A DNA stretch of 64,000 nucleotides from Vibrio fluvialis (lineage in GTDB: Bacteria > Pseudomonadota > Gammaproteobacteria > Enterobacterales > Vibrionaceae), in contig NZ_UHIP01000002.1 of NCBI RefSeq assembly GCF_900460245.1, forward strand, positions 682,001-746,000, in the 5' to 3' direction. Positions 50,745 to 58,423 of this stretch are shown here, one piece after another (the stretch's first letter is position 1; the number at the start of each line of letters is the position of its first letter). Under the pieces are notes generated by a model, which worked only from the letters and a program-made list of their open reading frames with translations, did no database searches and was not told the origin of the DNA. The position numbers and the translations under genes are program-made.

Positions 50745-52082
50745 TTAAGCCTGACGGACATTCATTTCGATGCGATGCAATGCACGCTGATAGATGCTCC
50801 AGGCGGTCGCGCCCGCCAGAATATTGCCGATGAACGCCCCGATAAATAGCCCTTTCAAATCGCCAATCTGCGCGCCCAACCACAAGCAGGGCAGGAAGAA
50901 AGCAAACAGGCGAAGTGCAGAAATGGTCAGCGCGACGTAAGATTTACCCAGCGCGTTAGACACCGATACCATCAGCATACAGATGCCCAATGGCCCAAGG
51001 CTGAGCGGTACCACCGTCAGGTGCCAGTTGAGGATCGATTCCACGCTCTGTTCACTGGTCATCAGACCGGCAAGAGGCGTTGCCAGTACCAATGTCAGCA
51101 AGGCGATCAGTAGCTGGAATACCAGAATAAAACGAATCGCTATAGTCACCAGTTTTCGAATGTCCGCTATATTGCTTGAACCGAGCAGACGGCCCACCAT
51201 TGGCGGCATCGACATGGTCAGCGCCAACACCGACACAATGGCAAAAAATTCAAAGCGTGAGCCCAATGCCCAGGCCGCAACAGCCGCTGTGCCGAAGCCT
51301 GCCAGTAATTTGGTGGCCAGCATTGAGGAAAGAGGCGGCAGCAGTTGGCTCAGCATTGCCGGTCCCATAATGTGACCAATGGAGCGCACACTCTGGGCAA
51401 TATTCAAATCGCTCCAGTCAAACAGCATCCAATGTTTGGCCGATACCCGCGGTGCTACGATCACAATACCGATACCAAAAGCAAGAATGGTCGCAATCGC
51501 GGCGCCATTGATGCCGAGATCAAAAGTAAAGATGAACAGCGGATCCAGAATCAGGTTCAGTACGCTGGTGATCATCATCATTGTCCCTGGCAGCATGGTG
51601 TTGCCATTGGCGCGGCAAAGACTGTAGAGGAAATAGAGCACCGCGCCCGTCCACGCACTGATGACCCACCAAATCCAGTAACTATCAATGATGGTAAACA
51701 CACTTTCCGGCGCGCTTAACAGCGACAAAATCGGGTGACGTAACAAGTACAGCGCCACGCCGAATACGGCGACGCCAATGCTGCCCATCGCCACGACTAA
51801 ACCGCCCAGCTGCTTGGCGTATTTATCCTGACCTGCCCCCAGCGCCCGTGAAATCACGGCGGTGGTCGCGATGCCAAGACCAACCTGAATGCCGATGATG
51901 ATCATCTGAATTGGCAAAGTGAACCCCTGCGCCGCCAGTGGCAGAACGCCGAGTTGGCCGATAAAAGCACTGTCGACCAGTTGGAAGCTCATCAGCGACA
52001 GTACGCCAAAGAGCATCGGCCAGGTCATCTGAAACAGCTGACGTGACAGCGAGGGGGGAGTAATTGTTTGGCGGTTTTGCAT
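50745..52082 (-). CDS. MATE family efflux transporter
   Basis: 445 aa with twelve membrane segments in two homologous halves. It has the N-lobe sequence MLFGVLSLMSFQLVDSAFIG and 'GILDPLFIFTF'-type motifs. MATE pumps export cationic drugs using Na+ or H+. This one belongs to a large family with several copies in vibrios, so the substrate cannot be given. The start ATG at 52082 has a short AGG site. It is monocistronic. Confidence 0.92.
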   Translation of the reverse strand: MQNRQTITPPSLSRQLFQMTWPMLFGVLSLMSFQLVDSAFIGQLGVLPLAAQGFTLPIQMIIIGIQVGLGIATTAVISRALGAGQDKYAKQLGGLVVAMGSIGVAVFGVALYLLRHPILSLLSAPESVFTIIDSYWIWWVISAWTGAVLYFLYSLCRANGNTMLPGTMMMITSVLNLILDPLFIFTFDLGINGAAIATILAFGIGIVIVAPRVSAKHWMLFDWSDLNIAQSVRSIGHIMGPAMLSQLLPPLSSMLATKLLAGFGTAAVAAWALGSRFEFFAIVSVLALTMSMPPMVGRLLGSSNIADIRKLVTIAIRFILVFQLLIALLTLVLATPLAGLMTSEQSVESILNWHLTVVPLSLGPLGICMLMVSVSNALGKSYVALTISALRLFAFFLPCLWLGAQIGDLKGLFIGAFIGNILAGATAWSIYQRALHRIEMNVRQA

Positions 52083-52243
52083 AAGAACCTATGGTTTTTT
52101 TGAATTTGAACGAGCAGTTATGTCAGGTAATATGCGGTTGAAAATGTCGAAATCAACGCCTTTGTTCTACGAGACAAAGGTTTACCTGATTTCGCAACTC
52201 AACTATTGTAGAACTATGTTAACAGTGTAAACGGCGAGTCGCC

Positions 52244-53218
52244 ATGCAAATACCAGCCAAACCTCTCGACGAACAACAACGTATTGCCAACCTGCACAAA
52301 CTCGGCATTCTGGATACCGCACCGGAAGAGCGTTTTGATCGTGTTACTCGCCTGGCAAGACGCCTGTTTGATGTGCCGATTGCCCTGGTGACTCTGGTGG
52401 ATGAGAAACGCCAGTGGTTCAAGTCCAGTTTTGGTCTGGATGTGAAAGAGACGCCGCGGGATGTTTCTTTCTGCGGGCATGCAATTTTGGGCGATGAACC
52501 GTTTATCATCAATGACGCTGAAGTGGACGAACGCTTTGCCGACAACCCGCTGGTAACCGATAAACCTCACATTCGCTTCTATGCGGGTGTGCCACTGGTG
52601 TTCCAGGATGGTACCAAGCTCGGCACGTTGTGCATTATTGATACCGAGCCGCGTAACCTGGATCAGGACCAGATTGTTGATTTGCTTGATCTGGCCAAAA
52701 TGGCGGAGCGTGAGCTGTCGGCAACGCACAATGCTTCGATGGATGAGCTCACCAATATTTCCAATCGTCGCGGCTTTTTATCTCTGGTAGGAAAGAGCTT
52801 AGCGCACTGCCGTTTCAACAGCATGCCTTACAGTTTGGCGTTTTTTGACCTCAATGGTTTCAAAGAGATTAACGACAAACTTGGCCATTCCATCGGTGAC
52901 GATGCGCTGCAAGATTTTGCACAGTTGATGAAACAAAGCTTTCGCGAATCGGATCTGCTTGCTCGCCTCGGCGGCGACGAGTTTGTGGTGTTTATGTCGG
53001 CGACACTGCCAGCGGATGCTGAAAACGCGATCGAACGTTTCCGTCAATCCGTAGCACAGTTTAACCACACCGCTGGTCGTCCTTATCAGCTGGCGTTTTG
53101 CAGCGGCACCGTGGCAGGGGATGGAGTGGCGGATGTCAGTATCGATACCTTACTCGAACAGGCTGATCAGGTAATGTACCGTCAGAAAACACAAATTCGG
53201 GCCGCCAAAGGACGCTGA
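52244..53218 (+). CDS. GAF-domain diguanylate cyclase
   Basis: 324 aa. An N-terminal GAF domain (about 25-155, including FCGHAILGDEPFIINDA) is followed by a GGDEF domain whose active site GGDEF is intact (243-247). An inhibitory I-site RxxD (R234-ES-D237) lies five residues before it. The protein has no membrane segment, so it senses a cytoplasmic signal and makes c-di-GMP. It stands alone. The ATG follows GGCGAG. Confidence 0.93.
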   Translation: MQIPAKPLDEQQRIANLHKLGILDTAPEERFDRVTRLARRLFDVPIALVTLVDEKRQWFKSSFGLDVKETPRDVSFCGHAILGDEPFIINDAEVDERFADNPLVTDKPHIRFYAGVPLVFQDGTKLGTLCIIDTEPRNLDQDQIVDLLDLAKMAERELSATHNASMDELTNISNRRGFLSLVGKSLAHCRFNSMPYSLAFFDLNGFKEINDKLGHSIGDDALQDFAQLMKQSFRESDLLARLGGDEFVVFMSATLPADAENAIERFRQSVAQFNHTAGRPYQLAFCSGTVAGDGVADVSIDTLLEQADQVMYRQKTQIRAAKGR

Positions 53219-53336
53219 TCACGCTTTGGGGTTGCTCGTTCCTCACTACGTTTCACAGTTTTAGTGCATCAGTATCGAAAATTCATTCGGGAGTGATATC
53301 GTTCTGCTTGGACGATATGCAATAGGATGAGAACGT

Positions 53337-54416
53337 ATGGATGCCGATCTTCGCCAACAATGCCACACCTTTATCGCGGGCAACCATGAACCGGATCCGG
53401 CGACACTGTTTCGCCAGATGGCAGACTGGTGCCAGGAGCATGATGCTGTGCATGATGCTTACGGAGAAGGAAAAACCATTCAGAATTTTGAACAGCAGGT
53501 CGCTGAGCTACTGGGCTTTGAGGCCGCGCTGTTTGTGATCACGGGTACCATGACCCAGCCAACCGCGTTGCAGTTGGTGTGTCAGGAAAAACGTTGCCCG
53601 GTGGTTGCGATGCACGAAACCTGTCACATCTTTGCGCATGAAGCGCAGGGCTATCAGATGCAGCAACGCTTTCAGGTACTGCCCGTCGGCGATCGCCATC
53701 GTCCGTGGAATGTCAAAGATCTTAAAGCCTGGCCGGATGAAATTGCGGCGGCGGTGTACGAACTGCCGATGCGTGAGATTGGTGGTCAGCTGCCAAGTTG
53801 GCAACAACTGGAAGAGGTCAAAACATACTGCGCCGAGCAGGGTATCCACCTGCACATGGACGGTGCGCGCTTATGGGAATCGGCCGCGTATTATCAGAAG
53901 AGTTATCGTGATATTGCTAAGGGGTTTAGCACCGCGTATGTCTCTTTGTATAAAGGCGTGAATGGCCTTGGTGGCTCAATGTTGCTTGGCAGCAAAGCCT
54001 TTATTCAGAAAGCGGCCGTGTGGATGCGCCGTCAGGGCGGCAACGTATATCATCGCACACCTTATGTGGTCTCGGCTGCGATGCAGTTTGAACAGCGCCT
54101 TGCGATGATGCCCGCGCTATACGAGCGCACGCAACAGGTTTATCAAATCCTGCTTGAATATCCGGAATTTGTGCTCAACCCGATTGAGCCGCAGGCCAAC
54201 ATGCTGCACCTCTATCTGCCACTAAGCGTCGACAATGCGATCGTACTGCGTAACCGTCTGGCGTCAGACAAGAAAATCTGGCTAGGCAACCCGCAGAGTG
54301 CACCGCAACCGAATCAAAGCTTCATTGAGTGGTATGTGGGTGACCGGTTGCTCAACATACCTGATCACCAACTGATTGAAGTGCTGGATTGGGTGCGAGA
54401 GCAGCTTAGCCAATAA
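53337..54416 (+). CDS. Threonine-aldolase-like PLP enzyme (beta-eliminating lyase family)
   Basis: 359 aa of fold-type I PLP protein. The PLP lysine is K206 in VSLYKGVNGLGG and the pyridine-nitrogen Asp is D175 in HLHMDGARLWES. 'DAYGEGKTIQNFEQQVAELL' fits the N-terminal segment of low-specificity L-threonine aldolases, which split threonine to glycine and acetaldehyde. The true substrate may be another beta-hydroxy amino acid. It precedes the 961-aa protein by 21 nt, so they may share a transcript. Confidence 0.85.
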   Translation: MDADLRQQCHTFIAGNHEPDPATLFRQMADWCQEHDAVHDAYGEGKTIQNFEQQVAELLGFEAALFVITGTMTQPTALQLVCQEKRCPVVAMHETCHIFAHEAQGYQMQQRFQVLPVGDRHRPWNVKDLKAWPDEIAAAVYELPMREIGGQLPSWQQLEEVKTYCAEQGIHLHMDGARLWESAAYYQKSYRDIAKGFSTAYVSLYKGVNGLGGSMLLGSKAFIQKAAVWMRRQGGNVYHRTPYVVSAAMQFEQRLAMMPALYERTQQVYQILLEYPEFVLNPIEPQANMLHLYLPLSVDNAIVLRNRLASDKKIWLGNPQSAPQPNQSFIEWYVGDRLLNIPDHQLIEVLDWVREQLSQ

Positions 54417-54437
54417 CGATTTACGGAATCTCCGTCT

Positions 54438-57323
54438 ATGTCTTATTTGAAATTGACTCATCAGACACCGCTCATTGCAGCGGTGTCTGCCTGTTTACTG
54501 GCCTCTCCCGCTCAGGCGGCGTTGGGGGACACGCCCATCATCGGCGGCGTGTTTAACTCCGCTGAGATCCTCAAAAATCAGATTGTCTCATCGCTCAGCT
54601 ATTCGACCACCGTGGCGCGTGATGCCACTATTTTTACTATCGCGGGAGTGTCGCTCGATACCTACATTCTGACTTTACCGCTGGACGCGAAAGTCAAAGC
54701 TCGCGTCATTAAGCAAATTTCCGATCCGGGCTACGCCATTCCGCTCGGCTACTTCCTCTATCAGTATTACGACCGTTACACCGGGATTGAGCCGGGTGAT
54801 CAGTTCAAAGCGTATCTTAGCAGCGTGTACGACGAGCAAGCGCTCAAAGGCTTTGAACACAGTCTGTATCATGTGGGTGATAAGCCGACGGATGAAACCC
54901 AGATGCGCAGTAAAGATCAGGCGCATCAGGAAGGGATTAAAGTTGATCGCGATTTCATCGCGACTTTGGTGACGCTGTATGATGCGTTGGTGCAGGTGGG
55001 CGAGTGGCAAAATGTGGCTCAGTTGCCGCAGCAGTATCAATACCTGAGCGGCAGTGCGCAAGACAAAGCGTTGGTCGCTAAAATTCAACCCATAGTGGTT
55101 GGGCTGCTGGAGAAAGCCTCATCTGGCATGCAGGACGGCGATATGAAAAATGCGCTGCTGGCGGTGATGGAAGATGCCAAACCCGCCAATGCCAGCAAAA
55201 TCAACAACAAAGCAGAAGCTGTGACCGTCAGTCTGATCGATTTTGTGCGCCTCAATGTGCTCAAAGGGTATCGCCAGTTTTTGTATCAGCAGGAGCGTAC
55301 TGAACGCTTGACGGATTGGCTGGTGGACACGCTCGACAGTAACCCGGCACAAGTCGCGGATTTTCTGCGTTCTCAGCAGCAGCGCCGTTTTGCGGTGCAG
55401 ATTACCGTCGATGGTTTGCAACAAGGCCTGATGCAGGGGCTGGTTGATCCGAGTAAGCCATTTATCGGCGAAGTGCACCGCCGTCAGGTAAATGCGGAGT
55501 CGGTACGTTCGCCGTTGACTCATGAACAGCCTGAGCATCAGCAGCAGGTGCGCTTTATGCAAATCCTCGCCGAACAGCCGTATCACGATCCCTATTACTT
55601 GCCGTTCTTTAAGCGCCTTTATCGTAGTGAGCACAGCAATATCGTTCAGGTAGGGATTTCCTCGACGCCCACCATCAGCGTGCGCAACCTGCCGCTGATC
55701 AAAACGGGGGCGAAAGTCTCCGGCGATGGCGGTACCGGCATTCCCAATTTCCACTTTGTCGATCGCCAACAAGACCGGGCGTATTACTTCTACGGCAATG
55801 ATGCATTGCAGCTCGATAAGCTGGTTGGTGAACGTCATGTCAAAACTATGTTTGATCGTTTGGACTACCTCAAAACGCTTAACTGCAACGCGCAATACGA
55901 CTGGAATGCGCACGTCACGTACGATGGCTTAATCAACCTCGGTGTCGGCGAGGCGCAGCGCGATTTTGGTGAGAAACGCTGCTTGCGCGACCTTGAATCG
56001 CGGGCGAAAGTGGAGCAATCGCTGAATGGCGTGCGCGCGACACTGATTGAGCAGGTAAGTCACTATCAGGACATTTCCAAATGGGATTTCTACACTCGCC
56101 TGAGCCGCAAATGGTCGTTGCAACAAGCACTGGCCGAATACGCCGAGCAAGACATCAACGGTTTGCCGGATTACACCCTGGTGTACAACCCGTGGCCGGA
56201 TCATTTTGCGCATTTTACCGGCCCGTTCAGCGATGAAGTCATCATGCCCACGGGCGAGCTTAACCGTCTTGATTACTGGTTAGGGCGGATGGAAAGTGCT
56301 TATCGGGATGCAGGTGTGTATGAGCGCACTTTGTGGGGTATGGCGGGGGACCACGGCCTGGCGCCGGTCTATTTTGCGCTCAATCCGGAAAAGCAGATCT
56401 TCACTCCGCTGGCGAAAGAACTCGGAATCCCGATTCATCTGGAGAAAATCTCCTCAGATGAAGGTGAAGGGCCGAAGCTGACCAACGCGCTCAATCCGCC
56501 TGGCTATCATCAGGTCGATGTGGTGGTTGCGTCGACCGCGGGCGGTAACTTCATGCTGGATTTCTTTAACGCCAAAGCAGGCTGGACAGTGCAACCGGTG
56601 TATCAGGAACTGACCCAATGGCAACCCGCAGAGAGCGAGAAACCCATCGATGTTATTGCCGAGAGCGTGACCCGTCTTGGCGATACGCTGGATTATCTGG
56701 CGGTCCGCGAAAGCGCCTGCAATTTGAAGCAATGTGCGGTGCGTCTGATTGGCGAACGCGACGGTCAGCGGGTGGATGAAATTATCCGCAAGCAGGGCGA
56801 CAAGCTCTATTACGCTGGCGTAAATGGTAAAGCGCGTCTGCTGGATGTGCAGGTGCTCAACCCGTATCTGTCACGCCCGAGCGAGCTGGCACTCAGCCAT
56901 TACGCCAAGCTGGTGGATAAATGCCTGTATAAAGCGACCGCAGATCACGTCGCAAGTTGGTGTAATGCCAATCAATGGCGTGATTTGACCCGCTTTAGCG
57001 CGCGGCCGGATTCCGTCAATCAGTTAGCAGCCATCTACGAAGAGGACCGTGCTGGCACCGTCAACCTGTTCCCGCGTGATGGTATTGGCTACAACACCAA
57101 AGTGCCGGGACGTCATGCCGGGGAAAGTTATCTGGAAAAAGATGCGTTTCTGGGCTTTTGGGGCGCGCCGGTGGGAGCCAATAAAAAGCCGCTGCTGAGT
57201 GAAGCGAACGGCTCATTGGCACCGACATTGTTTGAATATTTAACCGGCGAAACGGTAGTGCCGGGTCAAAATGGTTGGGGCTTTCCATCGCTGCTGAATA
57301 AGCTCGATATTCACAATCAGTAA
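54438..57323 (+). CDS. Large exported alkaline phosphatase superfamily protein, unknown substrate
   Basis: 961 aa. A signal peptide ends SPAQA at about 27. Residues about 28-310 have no family I recognise and are helical. The enzyme core spans about 315-961 and has the metal and catalytic residues of the phosphodiesterase/phosphatase superfamily: D325 (ITVDGLQQG), T433 as nucleophile in GGTGIPNFHF, D588/H592 (WPDHFAHF), D638/H639 (MAGDHG) and H893 (GRHAGES). About 100 residues separate D325 from T433, longer than usual. No close described homolog comes to mind. A Cys-containing C-terminal half suggests disulfides. It is probably periplasmic or secreted. The residue assignments are inference from motif order. 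Confidence 0.8.
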   Translation: MSYLKLTHQTPLIAAVSACLLASPAQAALGDTPIIGGVFNSAEILKNQIVSSLSYSTTVARDATIFTIAGVSLDTYILTLPLDAKVKARVIKQISDPGYAIPLGYFLYQYYDRYTGIEPGDQFKAYLSSVYDEQALKGFEHSLYHVGDKPTDETQMRSKDQAHQEGIKVDRDFIATLVTLYDALVQVGEWQNVAQLPQQYQYLSGSAQDKALVAKIQPIVVGLLEKASSGMQDGDMKNALLAVMEDAKPANASKINNKAEAVTVSLIDFVRLNVLKGYRQFLYQQERTERLTDWLVDTLDSNPAQVADFLRSQQQRRFAVQITVDGLQQGLMQGLVDPSKPFIGEVHRRQVNAESVRSPLTHEQPEHQQQVRFMQILAEQPYHDPYYLPFFKRLYRSEHSNIVQVGISSTPTISVRNLPLIKTGAKVSGDGGTGIPNFHFVDRQQDRAYYFYGNDALQLDKLVGERHVKTMFDRLDYLKTLNCNAQYDWNAHVTYDGLINLGVGEAQRDFGEKRCLRDLESRAKVEQSLNGVRATLIEQVSHYQDISKWDFYTRLSRKWSLQQALAEYAEQDINGLPDYTLVYNPWPDHFAHFTGPFSDEVIMPTGELNRLDYWLGRMESAYRDAGVYERTLWGMAGDHGLAPVYFALNPEKQIFTPLAKELGIPIHLEKISSDEGEGPKLTNALNPPGYHQVDVVVASTAGGNFMLDFFNAKAGWTVQPVYQELTQWQPAESEKPIDVIAESVTRLGDTLDYLAVRESACNLKQCAVRLIGERDGQRVDEIIRKQGDKLYYAGVNGKARLLDVQVLNPYLSRPSELALSHYAKLVDKCLYKATADHVASWCNANQWRDLTRFSARPDSVNQLAAIYEEDRAGTVNLFPRDGIGYNTKVPGRHAGESYLEKDAFLGFWGAPVGANKKPLLSEANGSLAPTLFEYLTGETVVPGQNGWGFPSLLNKLDIHNQ

Positions 57324-57350: not shown

Positions 57351-58271
57351 TTAGCCAGACGCTGCGTTCGCGATTAACGCGCGTCTGGCTTTGTCGTTCT
57401 GATAACCCCATACGCTTGCGGCAACGGTGAGCACCCCAACCCATGACATCAGGCTGAGCGTGGTGCCAAATAGCGCGTAATCAAACAGAATCGTCAGCAC
57501 CGGAATGCAGTAGAACAGCACGCTGACCTGACTGGCGGACTGATGTTTGAGCATCAGCATCAACAGCAGCAACGCGCCGGTCGACACCACCACACTCATC
57601 CACAGTAGTGAGATGACAAGCGGCGTATTCCACTGCATCTGCCAGGGTTGCGTCAGTTGGATAAGGCTGAAAATAACCAGTGCTACACTGTTCTGACACA
57701 CTACCGAATCCAGATTGTCGAGCTTGATTCGGCCTTGGCAAATGGTGCCAAAAGTAATCGCTGCCAATGCCAGTATCGCCAGACCTATCCCGCTCCAGTT
57801 CAGCGCGTCCAGTTGCGCCGACCCAGCGACTGCAAGGCTCAGCCCTATAAATCCAAACAGCAGAAACAGCATTGCGCGTCGGCTCTGACGTTGCCCGGTC
57901 AGCAGTGGTGTCAGGAGTGGTTGTAAGCCCAAAATGACGGTAACGATGCCCGGAGACAGACCTGTTGAGATCGCCAGAAAGTAACCACTGAGATAGCCGG
58001 CCTGCAATAGCAAGCCGGAGCCCAGTAGGTTCCACCGGGTAGCCCCAGTGGTGTGAGACAGATTGGGTCGCCAGCGGCCGCGCATCAGGCGCAGTAATAA
58101 CAGTGTCAGCGTGAAAGAAATGGCCGAACGGGCAATCAGAAAGCTCCAGACGGAAGCGTGTTCTAAGCCGAGCTTGACCATCACCGCACCACTGCTCCAC
58201 ATCAGAAGAAACAGAGTCGGCGCCAGTGTCAGCAGGGAATAAGGTTGGTTGAAACGTATTGAACGCGACAT
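57351..58271 (-). CDS. EamA/DMT family transporter
   Basis: 306 aa with ten membrane helices in two EamA repeats: LFLLMWSSGAVMVKLGLEHA at the start and 'SVLFYCIPVLTILFDYALFG' near the end. It probably exports a small metabolite or amino acid. It follows an AraC gene on the same strand after 152 nt, suggesting control by that regulator. The start at 58271 has only a weak site. Confidence 0.88.
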   Translation of the reverse strand: MSRSIRFNQPYSLLTLAPTLFLLMWSSGAVMVKLGLEHASVWSFLIARSAISFTLTLLLLRLMRGRWRPNLSHTTGATRWNLLGSGLLLQAGYLSGYFLAISTGLSPGIVTVILGLQPLLTPLLTGQRQSRRAMLFLLFGFIGLSLAVAGSAQLDALNWSGIGLAILALAAITFGTICQGRIKLDNLDSVVCQNSVALVIFSLIQLTQPWQMQWNTPLVISLLWMSVVVSTGALLLLMLMLKHQSASQVSVLFYCIPVLTILFDYALFGTTLSLMSWVGVLTVAASVWGYQNDKARRALIANAASG

Positions 58272-58423
58272 GAGACATTCTCGGTGAACAAAAATCAGTA
58301 ACACCGATAGTAGAGCGATTATTTTTTAAAATTGTGCAGAAAGGACACTTTGCTACGCCGAGATGGTGCTTTTCGTGTTGCCACCGCTACAAGTTCACCA
58401 TATGTATTGTTGGGATGGAAAAC

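Follow-up and report, generated by a model that had tools for sequence, protein, structure and literature searches.

An alkaline phosphatase-superfamily gene in Vibrio fluvialis

We analysed a 64,000-nucleotide stretch of the Vibrio fluvialis genome (the window; positions 682,001 to 746,000 of contig NZ_UHIP01000002.1, assembly GCF_900460245.1) and focused on the gene at positions 54438–57323 of its plus strand, on which all features described here lie unless stated otherwise. This is a real, intact gene that starts with ATG, encodes 961 amino acids, and is located on contig C2 of a 4.86-Mb genome with two contigs. An initial annotation, made from the sequence alone, had described its product as an exported protein of the phosphatase superfamily with a novel N-terminal region. 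A Pfam profile search supported the family assignment, placing residues 386–645 in PF01663, the type I phosphodiesterase/nucleotide pyrophosphatase family (44.9 bits; curated cut-off 23 bits). Together with the homologues and fold searches described below, this identifies an NPP-type member of the alkaline phosphatase superfamily. No NCBIfam family matched the 961-residue protein at E ≤ 1, and no curated cut-off of that database was reached.

Inspection of the N-terminus suggested a probable Sec signal peptide in residues 1–27 (54438–54518), with cleavage between AQA and Ala and a hydrophobic maximum at residues 12–30. A Cys at the position of C19 is present in 4 of the 57 rows of our conservation alignment, in which the protein from the window is itself one row, and because this residue is not conserved the protein is unlikely to be a lipoprotein. 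The mature region contains exactly six Cys in 53 of the rows, four in one and seven in three; C483, C515, C829 and C842 are found in all 57, C761 in 56 and C766 in 52. This conservation points to disulfides and thereby to a periplasmic or extracellular site, in line with an enzyme that is probably exported. The signal-peptide codons also contain a perfect 11-bp hairpin (54462–54489), which is weaker in V. furnissii, was not seen in the three more distant leaders examined, and may be a chance occurrence.

Putative metal ligands and nucleophile

Evidence from the predicted structure, here and below, consists of its secondary structure, the predicted local distance difference test (pLDDT) scores and the alignments from fold searches. 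The putative metal ligands are D325 (55410–55412), directly after the predicted strand 318–324; D588 and H592, spaced as D-x3-H within PWPDHFAHFTGP (56199–56213); D638 and H639 within GDHGL (56349–56354); and H893, the last ligand, within PGRHAGE (57114–57116). These six residues and T433 had been listed in the initial annotation as the catalytic set of the superfamily. All seven stand at the positions and in the order that it gave, and each is invariant in 57 of 57 rows. By position and invariance, the six candidate ligands thus follow the NPP/ENPP order D … D-x3-H … DH … H. Of 133 invariant positions in the protein, 130 come after residue 314 and three fall within residues 28–314. Residues 670–708 (56445–56561), between GDHGL and the last His, hold the nearly invariant motifs KISSDEGEGPK and ASTAGGNxMxD.

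The assignment of T433 (55734–55736) as the nucleophile was not confirmed. The NPP of Xanthomonas axonopodis (XaNPP; 2gsn, 7mw8 and 7n1s) has a Thr nucleophile in the motif P-S-L-T-F-P-N-x5-T-G, and its spacing is identical to that of P411-T-I-S414-V-R-N417-x5-T423-G424 in the V. fluvialis protein. One solved XaNPP chain carries Ala in place of the motif Thr, which we read as a nucleophile mutant. When motifs were scored along the 57-row alignment, the offset that places S414 (55677–55679) at the nucleophile was the best of 947, both with the XaNPP motif and with the motif of a PF01663 paralogue, whereas T433 ranked 59 and 734. In the model, strand 405–407 is followed by helix 414–423, which begins at S414; T433 lies in a loop. 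In a review (PMC11677397), the superfamily nucleophile is placed where the helix following strand 2 ends, and is given as a Ser in alkaline phosphatase (AP) and ENPP6. On account of the motif spacing, the best offset and the predicted helix-start position, S414, which is invariant in all 57 rows, is the most probable nucleophile. An active-site loop rearranged such that T433 takes this role is improbable: T433 is equally invariant and resides within the highly conserved GTGIPNFH, but it is modelled in a loop and not at a helix start, it ranks poorly in the motif scoring, and its surroundings lack the Asn and the Thr-Gly spacing of the NPP motif. The same predicted secondary structure speaks against T433 as a member of the single metal site in which all seven residues had been expected to meet.

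Taking S414 as the nucleophile also changes the size of the long insert that had been noted between the first metal ligand and the nucleophile. The insert is present, since D325 and S414 are 89 residues apart compared with 36 in XaNPP (hand count from the alignment), and it amounts to about 53 extra residues, not the approximately 72 that T433 would imply. The phosphate-binding Asn is probably N437 (55746–55748), a tentative assignment from the XaNPP alignment, with a distance from the nucleophile of 23 residues here and 21 in XaNPP. N454 is a second candidate, and both are invariant.

The paralogue used for motif scoring (L101, 1483–2298) is another PF01663 protein, of 271 amino acids, encoded in the same genome. 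Its motif PSMSRPLYECLLTG suggests a Ser nucleophile, and its flanks resemble, by eye, genes for a periplasmic binding protein and an ABC permease. Comparison of the family alignment (A3) with this paralogue by hhalign, with the one sequence serving as target, gave an uninformative probability of 0.12.

Predicted fold of the catalytic half

Residues 315–961 (55380–57320) are predicted to adopt an NPP/ENPP fold with inserted stretches, and the likeness extends across the whole catalytic domain of the model. All 50 fold matches listed by VIA are NPP-type, and the closest folds listed by VIA and Foldseek are hydrolases. No PhoA chain occurs among these 50 matches or the listed Foldseek rows, which does not exclude a likeness to PhoA. 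XaNPP comprises about 380 residues against 647 for the equivalent part here, shares 14% identity with it, and has no N-terminal helical region. The animal ectoenzymes ENPP5, ENPP6, ENPP4 and ENPP7 (5vem, 5ege, 4lqy and 5tcd), of which chains of about 373–393 residues were compared, are 12–13% identical and have no counterpart of residues 28–314. Judged from these NPP core sizes, a helical stretch at residues 497–572 (55926–56153; predicted helices 497–504, 510–545 and 551–572) is probably an insert.

Sphingomonas alkaline phosphatase (SPAP; 5xwk, 530 residues) shares the NPP-like superfamily fold and was the second Foldseek row (E 4.2e-7). It has a Thr nucleophile and is a monoesterase, and its specificity is ascribed to Lys171, Arg173 and Tyr301 blocking the diester pocket (PMC3145672). 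By analogy, the V. fluvialis protein might be a phosphomonoesterase on an NPP-like scaffold, with basic residues of the helical insert closing the second ester pocket, and the invariant R443, R447, R474, R508 and R522 between S414 and D588 would suit such a role. We consider this unlikely, given that every one of the 50 folds listed by VIA is NPP-type.

Transferases such as phosphoethanolamine transferases also have the superfamily core, and one of them is so labelled in PMC6971210. A transferase that delivers a phospho-group to an envelope acceptor bound by the N-terminal helices could explain why non-catalytic motifs are so strongly conserved, as these suggest a second ligand. Such an activity is nevertheless very unlikely, as the closest listed folds are hydrolases and no clear membrane helix was found past the signal-peptide region, where the best 19-residue hydropathy window beyond residue 30 starts at residue 64 with a value of 1.43.

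The N-terminal region

Residues 28–314 (54519–55379) are nearly all-helical in the model, with twelve helices of at least four residues and strands only as single bridges; pLDDT falls below 50 at residues 40–70 and 152–164. The region is less conserved than the core. Relatives sharing as little as 38% overall identity still have it, and there the region itself is 21–25% identical to that of the V. fluvialis protein. The novelty claimed for it in the initial annotation held at the sensitivity of our searches. The first approximately 285 mature residues matched no Pfam family at E ≤ 1, and residues 28–314 matched no sequence in the PDB. When an 11-sequence alignment of the region was used as the query, 14 proteins were found among 8000 candidates scored. 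All 14 are colinear pieces of the same gene family (49–100% identical), seven of them extending past residue 314 into the core, and there was therefore no free-standing homologue among these candidates.

Nor was there a convincing match to the region among solved folds, a result that says little given how poorly the region modelled on its own, with a pLDDT of 67.8 and a predicted TM-score (pTM) of 0.60. The alignment starts at residues 97–128 in 31 of the 50 VIA rows; because few aligned residues are gained by this, we read these starts as stray stretches. The region was modelled better within the whole protein than alone, suggesting that it packs against the core and does not form a domain of its own.

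Family and distribution

A search of 5.8 billion proteins, in which 7999 candidates were scored, returned 427 homologues at E ≤ 1e-3. The best 120 cover the query almost completely (96–100% in 119 and 90% in one), and a second search started from distant members gave 376 matches, with at least 90% coverage in 118 of the best 120. The closest cluster in the database, at 98% identity, is labelled Vibrio fluvialis, and the V. furnissii copy is 92% identical. The squid symbiont Aliivibrio fischeri is among the species with a homologue (L053, P0115). Two short peptide patterns, scanned against 84,980 species genomes, yielded 80 loci from Vibrio, Aliivibrio, Photobacterium, Enterovibrio, Shewanella, Ferrimonas, Psychromonas, Endozoicomonas, one Thalassotalea metagenome-assembled genome (MAG) and further MAGs. 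The named relatives are from marine Gammaproteobacteria and a few other MAGs (37–92% identity); MAGs labelled Halobacteriovoraceae, Bdellovibrionaceae and 'uncultured proteobacterium' carry homologues at 37–46% identity.

The distribution is patchy. The gene was detected in 17 of 37 Vibrio genomes and in none of 24 other genomes of the order, and an even draw of the class gave none in 368 other genomes. In a larger draw of Vibrio it occurs in 53 of 148 genomes, each a sampled species, and three of these have it in pieces. The copies in genomes G010, G005 and G081 are split into two or three, which may mean either that the gene is dispensable in some species or that the assemblies contain errors. 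In a FastTree phylogeny of 73 proteins, Shewanella and Vibrio each require at least five label changes, a pattern that fits repeated transfer, with the warning from the tree tool that it is no proof. The V. litoralis and V. rumoiensis copies (L085 and L090) cluster with Shewanella (L076–L078) on starred branches, and the Shewanella corallii copy (L074) clusters with Enterovibrio loci, also on a starred branch; these placements suggest transfer between marine genera.

Vibrio and Shewanella database entries named 'alkaline phosphatase family protein' or 'nucleotide pyrophosphatase' belong to the same full-length family, and those examined bear the generic name without an attached function. No publication on the family was found among titles and abstract openings of mostly open-access literature, nor did our searches turn up a described enzyme family of the same full length. 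As far as could be seen, the family is uncharacterised; its fold class is known, and its N-terminal region is unfamiliar.

Neighbouring genes and regulation

A pyridoxal phosphate (PLP) enzyme of family PF01212 is encoded 21 nt upstream of the phosphatase gene (53337–54416). Its scores of 80.5 bits for low-specificity threonine aldolase and 105.7 bits for GntG fall short of the NCBIfam cut-offs (312 and 230 bits, respectively), and a second relative, 28% identical to it, is encoded in the same genome. The initial annotation had named this enzyme as the only described partner of the phosphatase. The 21-nt gap is as described, but the partnership is not conserved: the PLP gene lies beside a phosphatase homologue at one of the 80 named loci (V. 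furnissii), with at least four loci ending too near to tell. Among the 148 Vibrio genomes, the phosphatase is present in 53, a close PLP orthologue in 65 and the two together in 30 (Fisher p 0.025, odds ratio 2.2, uncorrected for kinship). The two genes are adjacent in two of these 30 (the genome of the window and that of a 92% relative), separated by 131 kb to 1.5 Mb in 22, and on different contigs in six. That the two proteins catalyse successive steps of one pathway, as the short gap on a common strand and the weak co-occurrence might suggest, is thus highly improbable, because adjacency is so rare and because 23 of the 53 phosphatase genomes have no PLP orthologue and 35 of the 65 PLP genomes have no phosphatase. 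The PLP enzyme is a lineage-specific neighbour and not a conserved partner.

Clustering of neighbouring open reading frames at 84 loci gave no cluster present in more than 15, and a conserved operon partner was therefore rejected. A Pho box was rejected as well, the mean best score over 75 loci being 16.28 compared with 16.25 for shuffles; two Ferrimonas loci (L083 and L086) score 20, above their own ten shuffles. Among consensus sequences for CRP, Fur, Zur, LexA, ArgR and NagC no class stood out, with CRP slightly raised (0.716 versus 0.681; two of 75 loci at 0.9 or above). With no neighbour recurring in more than 15 of the 84 loci and no Pho box excess, the phosphatase gene is best regarded as standing on its own.

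In the window, a GGDEF gene and the PLP enzyme separate a MATE gene from the phosphatase (52082–54438). Neither intervening gene was found at locus L019 of the relative G010, where a MATE match starts about 450 nt from the first piece of the phosphatase, nor did that genome yield a PLP orthologue. Downstream of the phosphatase are two long overlapping frames on the minus strand (57351–58304 and 57481–58278), the first of which matches EamA.

Discussion

The reading that we favour, with reasonable though not high confidence, is that the protein is an exported hydrolase of the NPP type that uses two metals and a serine nucleophile and bears a helical cap specific to its family. The two ions, probably zinc, would be bound by D325, D638 and H639 and by D588, H592 and H893, and would activate S414. 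Attack by this residue on the phosphorus atom of a phosphodiester or pyrophosphate would displace the leaving group, and water would then release the phospho-serine. The helical N-terminal region, the 497–572 helices and the 660–800 stretch may together form the cap over or around the active site and set the substrate. A diesterase activity is what we infer because of the fold.

Several observations weigh against this interpretation. The Foldseek superposition is loose, with TM-scores of 0.24–0.29 when normalised to the length of the query and no higher than 0.63 when normalised to that of the target, and root-mean-square deviations of 8.8–14.8 Å over gapped columns. No PDB sequence was matched by phmmer or by profiles, one of which gave an unrelated chain at E 2.1. 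The motif scores that single out S414 are not significant alone, as 24 of 200 and 43 of 200 shuffled motifs reach them somewhere in the protein, and T433 matches S414 in invariance. SPAP, NPP-like in structure yet a monoesterase (PMC3145672), and the second row in the Foldseek results, makes clear that a diesterase fold is no proof of diesterase activity. Lastly, the lack of a Pho box excess weakens a role in phosphate starvation.

For the exported hydrolase that we favour, the likeliest settings are scavenging of organic phosphate or turnover of envelope phosphodiesters. A more far-reaching possibility, which we put forward tentatively, is that these exported NPP-type enzymes make up a family of their own, so far undescribed, whose N-terminal helices, with no known relative, serve as an obligate lid or folding partner of the catalytic core. 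In this scenario SSDEGEGPK and STAGGN would act as a substrate clamp, and a marine phosphorus compound beyond those of the described NPPs would be cut.

If the favoured reading is true, a superfamily that is used to study the origins of mono- and diesterases would gain an exported phosphoesterase whose nucleophile is a serine and whose cap is unfamiliar. The corrected nucleophile makes the first residues to mutate obvious, in a gene that is common to about a third of the sampled Vibrio species and to other marine genera and yet has carried only a generic name in the entries examined.
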